Shown in pieces: positions 33,018 to 35,003 of a stretch of 64,000 nucleotides of DNA. The stretch covers positions 444,193 to 508,192 of the forward strand of contig NZ_FNQB01000004.1 in NCBI RefSeq assembly GCF_900107455.1, given 5' to 3'. The position numbers and the translations under genes were made by a program. Within the stretch, counting starts at the first letter, position 1. Each line of letters begins with the position of its first letter. The notes under the pieces were generated by a model, which was not told where the DNA came from, searched no databases, and saw only the letters and a program-made list of their open reading frames with translations. This stretch comes from Asanoa ishikariensis (GTDB taxonomy: Bacteria > Actinomycetota > Actinomycetes > Mycobacteriales > Micromonosporaceae).

Positions 33018-34022
33018 TTACATGGCCTTCGTGAGGTAGCTCTGCACGGTGTCGTCGGCCACAGCCTGGTAGAGGGCCTTGGCCTTGGTCTTGTCCGAAA
33101 GAACGACGCTCTGTCCGTCTCGCGTGGCGGTGCCGGCGTTGGGGCTGCCCATGAAGGTCAGGTCGGCGCTGCGCAACCCGCGGAGCTCGACTGCCGTGTC
33201 GACGAGGTCGAAATCCTGGTCCACGGTCAGGGATTTGGTCGCGGCCTGGAGGAAACTGTTGAGCTTGACGGGATTCGCGAGGGTGCCGGCGCTGGCGGCC
33301 TTGTCCAGCAGGGCCTGCAGGAACTCCCGCTGGTGGCGCTCGCGGCTGAAGTCACCGTCGGCGAACTGGTAGCGCTGCCGCACGTAGTCCAGCGCCTCGG
33401 CCCCGGTCAGGTGCTGAGTGCCTTTCTTGAACGTCCGGTACGGCGCGTGGATCGACTTGATCGTCTTCTCGATCTTCAGGTCGACGCCACCAAGCGCGTT
33501 GACCACCTGGGCGAAGCCGCCGAAGTCGATCAGCGCCACGTGGTCGATGTGCACGCCGGTGAACCCTTCGACGGTCTGGACGATCAACGGCGTGCCACCC
33601 CACGCGTACGCTGCGTTGATCTTCGCCATCGTGTTGCCGTTGTTGCCGTCCGGCGAGGTCGGCACGAACACCCAGGTGTCGCGGGGGATCGAGATGACCT
33701 CGGCCTTCTTGTGGTCGGCGTCGACGTGCAAGATCATGATCGTGTCGGTACGGGAGTCGGCGGTCTTGTCCGGGTCGCGGGAGTCGCTGCCAAGTAGCAG
33801 CACGTTGAGCGCGCCCTGGACCACCTGGGTCGGCCGGCTTTCCTCAGGCACGTCTTTGAAGGCGTCAGTGCGCGCAAGGTGGTTGTTGAGTGACCGTCCG
33901 TAGGCCCAACCGGCCACGACGCCACCGACGCCCAGCAGCACCACGACTGCCAGGGCCCCGATCAAAATCCGTTTCGTCCTGCGACGCACTATCCCAAGCC
34001 CATCCGTCCCGCCGGCGACCAC
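33018..34022 (-). CDS. LytR-CpsA-Psr (LCP) cell-wall glycopolymer ligase
   Basis: A 334-residue membrane-anchored enzyme. One N-terminal transmembrane helix (ILIGALAVVVLLGVGGVVAG) precedes the extracellular LCP domain: LNVLLLGSDSRD, RTDTIMILHVDADHK, VISIPRDTWVFVP, KINAAYAWGG, GVDLKIEK and LTGAEALDYVRQRYQFADGD with the Arg residues that hold the polyprenyl-phosphate substrate. It transfers wall glycopolymers from lipid carrier to peptidoglycan. The start GTG 34022 is 76 bp from the MITE-like element at 34099. Confidence 0.92.
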   Translation of the reverse strand: MVAGGTDGLGIVRRRTKRILIGALAVVVLLGVGGVVAGWAYGRSLNNHLARTDAFKDVPEESRPTQVVQGALNVLLLGSDSRDPDKTADSRTDTIMILHVDADHKKAEVISIPRDTWVFVPTSPDGNNGNTMAKINAAYAWGGTPLIVQTVEGFTGVHIDHVALIDFGGFAQVVNALGGVDLKIEKTIKSIHAPYRTFKKGTQHLTGAEALDYVRQRYQFADGDFSRERHQREFLQALLDKAASAGTLANPVKLNSFLQAATKSLTVDQDFDLVDTAVELRGLRSADLTFMGSPNAGTATRDGQSVVLSDKTKAKALYQAVADDTVQSYLTKAM

Positions 34023-34098
34023 GCTGATCCCCGAACGTGAGCGACGTTATATGTCGTTCCTGTGTGCTTTCTTGGAGGTCTGTGTTGATCTTTCCCGG

Positions 34099-34353
34099 CT
34101 AGGGCGTGTCCTGCCGATCAACGTGAGCCGAGCCGGCCGAGCACGTTGAGCCGTGCCGCCCGGATCGACGGCAGGATCGCCGCCACGACGCCCACCATGC
34201 CCAGGTGGAGGACGATCGTCGACCACGGCAGCGTCACCGCCAGGTGGCTCGGGATTGCCGGGATACCGGTGTTGCATCTCGGTGATCCAGGCATGCCGCC
34301 AGGCGGCGGCTAGGCCCGTCACAGGCCGCGTTGATCGGCAGGACACGCCCTAG
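34099..34353. mobile_element. 255-bp MITE-like element with 25-bp terminal inverted repeats
   Basis: The 25 bases at 34099-34123 are the exact reverse complement of those at 34329-34353. The repeats begin CTAGGGCGTGTCC and end CGATCAACG when read inward. CTAG at each outer edge may be part of the repeat or a duplicated CTAG/TA target. There is no transposase. The ends resemble IS5-group style termini of actinobacterial insertion sequences (general knowledge, not checked). Inside is the 3' end of an FtsX-type permease gene. It lies between the LCP gene start and the stop of the next gene. Confidence 0.75.
34121..34273 (-). pseudogene. FtsX-family ABC permease C-terminal fragment inside the MITE
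   Basis: On the minus strand the interior reads TGIPAIPSHLAVTLPWSTIV, then LHLGMVGVVAAILPSIRAAR and LNVLGRLGSR followed by TGA at 34118-34120. AAILPSIRAARLNVL is the typical C-terminal end of MacB/FtsX-type permeases. The terminal repeat starts within the last codons and supplies the stop. About 50 residues remain; the rest of the gene is absent. Confidence 0.65.
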
Positions 34354-35003
34354 AGCGAGGGCTGCAGGTCGCTGAACCGCCGGGGAAGCAGCGCGGCCTT
34401 CTGCTCGGGAAACACGTCACCGCCGTAGCGGAAGATGCGGGCGCAGTTTTGACCGCGCGTCTCGGTCGTCAGCGCGCGCCGCGCGAGCGCCGAGTACATG
34501 GTGCTGTGCTTCACCCAGGCGGCCTCTTCGCCGTGCCGGTCGAAGCCCCGCCCGCTCCCCGCGTGCCCGAAGGCATCGTGGACCGCGCGGAACATGTCGT
34601 TCTGCCCGTCGCTGAGGTACGGGTGGGAGTTGCCGCCGGCGGCGCTGGCCCACACGTTCAGCCGGTGGGCCCGCAGGTCGTCGACCATGGACTCGACATC
34701 CGTGTACGGATCCTCGTCGACGACCCGCACGGCCACTCCCAGGCCGCCGAACTCGGTGCGGCCGATCAGGAAGTCGTACTGTTTCAGGGTTTCACGACAG
34801 AACGCGGCGTACGCGGAATAGGCGCGCTCCTCGCGGCTCGGCGCGGCCAGGTACGCGTCCGCGATGGCCGCGCCGACGCCCGGATCGAGCCGCACGCGGG
34901 CGTATACCTCGGGCGCGACTTCAGTCTTCGGGCCGAACTGGATCGAACCGCTACGCAGATACTCGACCGGTGGGAAGGGCGGTGACGGCGTGGGTACGAA
35001 CAA
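34350..35003 (-). CDS. Uncharacterised protein with HDxFGH/HGEExxW motifs
   Basis: A 217-residue soluble protein of unknown function. A conserved-looking core reads YTDVESMVDDLRAHRLNVW, SHPYLSDGQNDMFRAVHDAF then GHAGSGRGFDRHGEEAAWVK and QNCARIFRYGG. The His/Asp/Glu spacing (HDAFGH ... HGEEAAW) looks like a metal-binding or catalytic site; this is inference. The start is a TTG at 35003; GAGGAGG lies 14 bases upstream and is better placed for an ATG at 35013 in a frame that soon stops, so a frameshift near the 5' end is possible. Its stop codon TAG is provided by the end of the MITE-like element. Confidence 0.65.
   Translation of the reverse strand: MFVPTPSPPFPPVEYLRSGSIQFGPKTEVAPEVYARVRLDPGVGAAIADAYLAAPSREERAYSAYAAFCRETLKQYDFLIGRTEFGGLGVAVRVVDEDPYTDVESMVDDLRAHRLNVWASAAGGNSHPYLSDGQNDMFRAVHDAFGHAGSGRGFDRHGEEAAWVKHSTMYSALARRALTTETRGQNCARIFRYGGDVFPEQKAALLPRRFSDLQPSL

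Follow-up and report, generated by a model that had tools for sequence, protein, structure and literature searches.

The actinomycete Asanoa carries a new family of IS5-derived hairpin MITEs, and in Asanoa ishikariensis one copy of this family holds a piece of a host gene. This copy lies in a 64,000-nucleotide stretch of contig NZ_FNQB01000004.1, referred to below as the window, and six Asanoa genomes were compared in all (G000 denotes the genome of the window, which spans G000:C5:444193-508192; G002, G003 and G005 are congeners). The element is a MITE: it is short, bounded by terminal inverted repeats, devoid of a transposase and present in many copies. The perfect 25-bp terminal repeats and the 205-bp interior reported in the initial annotation were both recovered (25 of 25 positions are complementary), and a weaker extension beyond the repeats lengthens the arms to 38 nt at 84%. 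The terminal T-A pairs are most simply read as the target-site TA, which would make the element proper run from G34102 to C34350 (Table 1). The same annotation had described a transposase-free element built around a captured coding fragment; it is a transposase-free MITE, but the FtsX piece proved to be patched into one arm of an element that is otherwise a standard non-coding fold-back. A 58-aa open frame spanning this piece found no match among Pfam or NCBIfam families, for which reason the assignment of a function to it was dropped, and it is taken to be a by-product.

Table 1 Features of the MITE and its neighbourhood in the window (positions are those of the window).
Feature	Position	Strand	Basis or remark
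LytR-CpsA-Psr gene, neighbour	33018..34022	-	PF03816
Left terminal repeat, 25 bp, including target CTA	34099..34123	+	
TA, presumed left copy of duplicated target	34100..34101	.	TA at both ends in 27/42 copies
MITE proper (G...C), variant B with FtsX insert	34102..34350	.	limits inferred from TA flanks of other copies
58-aa open frame spanning the FtsX piece	34118..34294	-	ends at TGA within left repeat
GC common to MITE and FtsX, left junction	34136..34137	.	read from sequences
Captured 3' piece of FtsX-type permease gene	34136..34236	-	96/101 aligned bases plus 9-bp gap to G000:C3:1568329-1568438
GCGTCA common to MITE and FtsX, right junction	34231..34236	.	read from sequences
Remainder of MITE: hairpin core and right arm	34237..34328	.	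up to 93% identity to other copies, query 154-265
Right terminal repeat, 25 bp, including target TAG	34329..34353	-	
HDxFGH protein gene, TAG stop at junction	34350..35003	-	no Pfam or NCBIfam match
TA, presumed right target copy	34351..34352	.	with C34350 gives TAG stop of minus-strand gene

A search of G000 with positions 34090-34360 returned 35 matches, including the self-match, the element's own repeats and two FtsX genes; these were MITE pieces (query positions of about 7-48 and 154-265) and, separately, the centre of the query (47-147) on the FtsX genes. The 22-base end pattern, with up to three mismatches allowed, occurred 13 times, against none for the reversed control. The further copies with the same ends and different interiors, which had been proposed as a sign of mobility, do exist: genome searches found the same MITE family in all six Asanoa genomes. 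Copy counts are based on 42 of 66 terminal-repeat pairs, the 24 dropped pairs comprising complete IS copies, chance pairings in which the partner was weak, alternative pairings, and loci with short flanks or odd ends (including L108, L109, L110 and L112). Among the 42 paired copies, 22 measure 164 bp (from the A of AGG to the T of CCT) and 33 fall within the standard 163-166 bp; nine lie outside this range, copies of 73-97 bp are internal deletions, a few hold other inserts, and the window copy is the longest (251 bp). The exact terminal pattern is present in 28 stretches of named genomes, one of them from Streptomyces scopuliridis (a single end found); 27 of the 28 belong to genera that we take to be Micromonosporaceae. 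Two unusual arrangements were also seen, namely a 31-bp remnant in which two MITE ends meet in an almost perfect palindrome (L193 1355-1385, G000:C2:882954-882984) and a partial tandem array containing the variant-B arm three times (L107 150-850, G002:C31:21150-21850).

The match of the captured piece to FtsX scores 140 bits and is safe against decoys (300 reversed pieces searched against the 64-kb window gave at most 43.7 bits, with a median of 28.3, to which a whole genome would add an estimated 7 bits or so). The piece is closest to the gene of G000 itself, with 96 of 101 positions identical, versus 93, 92, 92 and 90 of 101 and 84 of 99 in five congeners; the G000 gene and that of the nearest congener differ at 9 of 110 positions. 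Three of the five mismatches are G in the piece and A in the G000 gene, and three, five and four of the five congeners, respectively, have G at these positions (read from the alignment); hence either the G000 gene was altered after the capture, or a different allele served as donor. Where the initial annotation had suggested looking for an intact FtsX gene, an uninterrupted one is present elsewhere in G000, with 541 codons open to the stop and a start beyond the stretch retrieved; its frame carries PF02687. The element therefore encloses a fragment of a host gene with a relative persisting elsewhere in the genome, which is a trait of Pack-MITEs. No second FtsX-bearing MITE copy was found in the six Asanoa genomes, so movement of this element with its cargo is unsupported, and given this single copy we describe it as resembling a Pack-MITE rather than filing it as one. 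The fragment had been described as the last ~50 residues of the permease, stopping at a TGA in the left repeat. The FtsX homology and the position of the TGA stand; the length does not, as the piece comprises 101 bp (~34 codons) and ends before the last five residues of the donor, and the TGA belongs to the MITE rather than being the stop of the permease gene. The codons for LAVT were likewise dropped from the FtsX piece, identical bases being present in variant-B copies free of FtsX. The uninterrupted parent arm, CCGAGCCGGCGTCACCGCCAGG, is found in one other copy of the same genome (L009) and at two G002 loci (L107 and L109), other loci listed with it being overlapping stretches of these three; when the insert is set against this arm, no MITE base is missing.

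Taken as a whole, the explanation that we hold to be probable is that the element is an IS5-derived MITE of Asanoa, which inserted at TA, rebuilding a TAG, and received its FtsX patch by templated repair. The standard copy would be a fold-back hairpin of ~164 bp that is mobilised in trans when an IS5-type transposase recognises ends like AGGGCGTGTCCTGCCGATCA; it would insert at TA, often within CTAG, and its initial G would produce TAG at gene ends. A break or a stalled fork in one hairpin arm of a variant-B copy may then have been mended with 101 bp copied from the 3' end of a host FtsX permease gene, with the copying entering and leaving at microhomologies of 6 and 2 bases and without the loss of any MITE base. 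Within this account, we infer the TA duplication at the window site, the movement by an IS5-type transposase and template switching as the capture step.

Two other origins of the structure were weighed. It could be a deletion product, formed if two MITEs had flanked an FtsX gene and an internal deletion had left part of one MITE, the end of the gene and most of the other MITE. MITEs do land beside such genes, as in G002, where a variant-B MITE stands directly after the stop of another gene, read by eye as an FtsX-type permease (L112 344-475, G002:C15:202343-202474). However, the MITE sequences to the left and right of the insert join up into the complete parent arm; a deletion would need the same MITE position to have been hit twice, and no MITE end lies just after the stop of the donor gene, so that we regard this course of events as improbable. 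The initial annotation itself had named a chance inverted duplication without mobility as the alternative. The presence of FtsX in one copy only would agree with it, but a repeated family with the same ends and core, found in all six Asanoa genomes and in other genera, leaves it next to no probability, and it was rejected on copy number.

A different reading concerns the family rather than the insert, and holds that it is mainly a transcription terminator or structured RNA kept by the host at gene ends, its spread being secondary. The aligned copies (27 sequences, taking in rows with other end types such as L008, L012, L018, L021, L028 and others) fold as one full-length stem of 71 pairs, 33 of which are changed on both sides in at least one row. 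Left and right ends agree far better within a copy (mean 0.98 mismatches in 20) than between different copies paired at random (3.20), and in 10,000 permutations the mean never fell below 2.48. These features, together with the location of copies at gene ends described below, favour such a role; nevertheless, the paired changes could have selection, arm correction or subfamily spread as their cause. In addition, the window gave no Rfam match at the gathering score, and a known structured RNA was rejected as a candidate (five loci yielded one chance-level match, to mir-1990, E 0.93). No site shared across species, and hence no orthologous MITE pair, was found among the flanks of the 42 copies, the only matching pair (L067 and L080) coming from one genome, so that turnover seems likelier than maintenance at constant sites. 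We therefore consider a primarily terminator-like or RNA function unlikely, although less so than the deletion. Related copies combine the common core with other ends, e.g. AGGCCCTGTTTCGTATCTGG or AGGGGGTGTCTCGTGGATCA. Several MITE families (L012, L018, L021, L028, L029 and L008) appear to share one hairpin core with different self-complementary ends, as if different transposases carried it.

A full insertion sequence with the same ends, the existence of which had been raised in the initial annotation, is present in the congener G005. This 926-bp element has both ends identical to those of the window element over 20 of 20 bases and contains two overlapping reading frames, both matching the IS5-family transposase model NF033580 (161 and 133 bits, with a cut-off of 110) and carrying the Pfam domains PF13340 (DUF4096) and PF01609 (DDE_Tnp_1). 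The full-length partner of the Asanoa MITE thus has the features of IS5-family insertion sequences, i.e. an IS5-type transposase and CTAG-rich targets, and its two-frame layout is like that of the IS427 group. Similar elements of 934-942 bp occur in Micromonospora and Planosporangium. In G000, no match to the transposase of this G005 and Micromonospora kind was found and the IS5 model gave only matches below the cut-off, with no intact partner in the same genome, so the MITE copies of G000 look stranded today.

TA is present at both ends of 27 of the 42 copies (a count helped by the search patterns, which favoured a terminal A), and in 14 of these 27 the target is CTAG; the other 15 copies have no TA on one or both sides. 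The four G005 IS copies inspected were all located in CTAG. Escherichia coli IS5, according to the accessible part of PMC5493358, targets YTAR (CTAG in 15 of 24 listed cases) and duplicates four bases, whereas the Asanoa element is without a transposase and the flanks of the MITEs seem to fit a two-base TA duplication better. As copies insert at TA and begin with G, TAG is recreated at landing; when the TA hit is that of a TAG or TAA stop, a TAG still stands there and insertion would thus be tolerated at gene ends, and with a CTAG target the stop is rebuilt on both strands. In line with this, the TAG stop of the HDxFGH gene at the right repeat, noted in the initial annotation, was confirmed as formed at the right end of the element. 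The wider observation that the repeats double as stop codons finds its explanation (TA target plus initial G) on this side, the TGA of the left repeat being simply part of the MITE. A junction TAG ends a gene-like frame on 25 of the 66 sides of 33 Asanoa copies, versus 10 of 94 control CTAG sides (Fisher p = 7e-5; the control sites, 24 from the window and 23 from 32 loci, may include overlapping loci, and for MITEs and controls alike, frame length and codon G+C, not annotation, decided what counted as a gene end). When any stop within a few bases is counted, the figure rises to 32 of 66 sides; by copy, frames end on at least one side in 23 of the 33, on both sides in nine and on none in ten. 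In the window, CTAG itself is rare (29 occurrences, against 177 expected from base composition).

At the insertion locus, G002 has the same two genes, its flanks being identical to those of G000 at 92% and 84.5%, but lacks the MITE. A place without the element, for which relatives were to be examined, is thus there; the exact ancestral site is not visible, as ~66 bp of G002 between the aligned flanks are unmatched. The G002 gene runs four codons further, to a TGA (translation read by eye). G003 has a relative of the HDxFGH gene (72% identical protein), and the 700 bases that follow the stop of this relative contain no MITE; the gene had no match in the other three congeners.

Inserts were also seen in copies from two congeners. 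In a 198-bp copy (L109 217-414, G002:C20), a piece of 50 bp matches an RHS-type gene in both G000 and G003 at 88% identity (64.4 bits); G002 itself yielded no donor. A 230-bp copy (L189 1263-1492, G003:C138) contains 37 bp that are 92% identical to a hemE-like gene of G003 (54.5 bits), and hemE-like orthologues in three more genomes match this insert more weakly. Both pieces are probably gene scraps, their names resting on translations read by eye. The decoys suggest that the hemE-like match is near the edge of noise and the RHS-like one better. Further matches of the hemE-like query, scoring 41-50 bits, look like chance hits. A search of four genomes revealed no donor for the insert of a 232-bp copy (L104 1356-1587, G002:C18:472295-472526).

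The Asanoa MITE can be compared with several known systems. As described in the available part of PMC2229807, Correia/NEMIS, ERIC and RUP elements are likewise ~100-200 bp long, have TA termini, are mostly intergenic and would form long stem-loops in transcripts; in the Asanoa MITE, by contrast, the stem spans the whole element, a stop codon is rebuilt and one copy carries a host-gene piece. Hairpin MITEs with fused reading frames are described in the same source, and MITEs have been reported in Thiomargarita (PMC4853749). TIMEs of Pseudomonas (PMC4133298, accessible part) are also transposase-free bacterial elements able to carry other DNA, but they derive from Tn3 and their cargo lies between two copies or forms a module, whereas the Asanoa cargo is a patch inside one short element. 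The plant Pack-TYPE/Pack-MULE elements (PMC8903248) are, as far as the text available shows, likewise non-autonomous terminal-repeat elements around a piece of a host gene, the gene itself still being present elsewhere; the Asanoa element differs in being bacterial, IS5-derived, with a 101-bp fragment and known from one cargo-bearing copy. A term search of the same text gave no mention of bacteria. A literature search for gene-capturing bacterial MITEs, Micromonospora MITEs, insertion at CTAG or stop codons, and bacterial Pack-type elements found no such case within its scope, which left most subscription papers outside.

The window element illustrates clearly that a bacterial element without a transposase can take up coding DNA of its host, and the capture step is testable because the closest donor, the junctions and the type of the parent element have all been identified. 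More broadly, the full-length hairpin MITEs of Micromonosporaceae might be recurrent traps of gene fragments, a possibility to which we give somewhat less than even weight: breakage of the hairpin would be repaired by short templated copying of host genes (FtsX here, RHS-like and hemE-like in the two congeners), and stop-recreating ends would make the elements' spread into gene ends largely harmless, as a bacterial counterpart of plant Pack-TYPE shuffling. The simple rule by which a TA target and an initial G give TAG indicates a way in which small elements can occupy gene ends and leave the genes intact.
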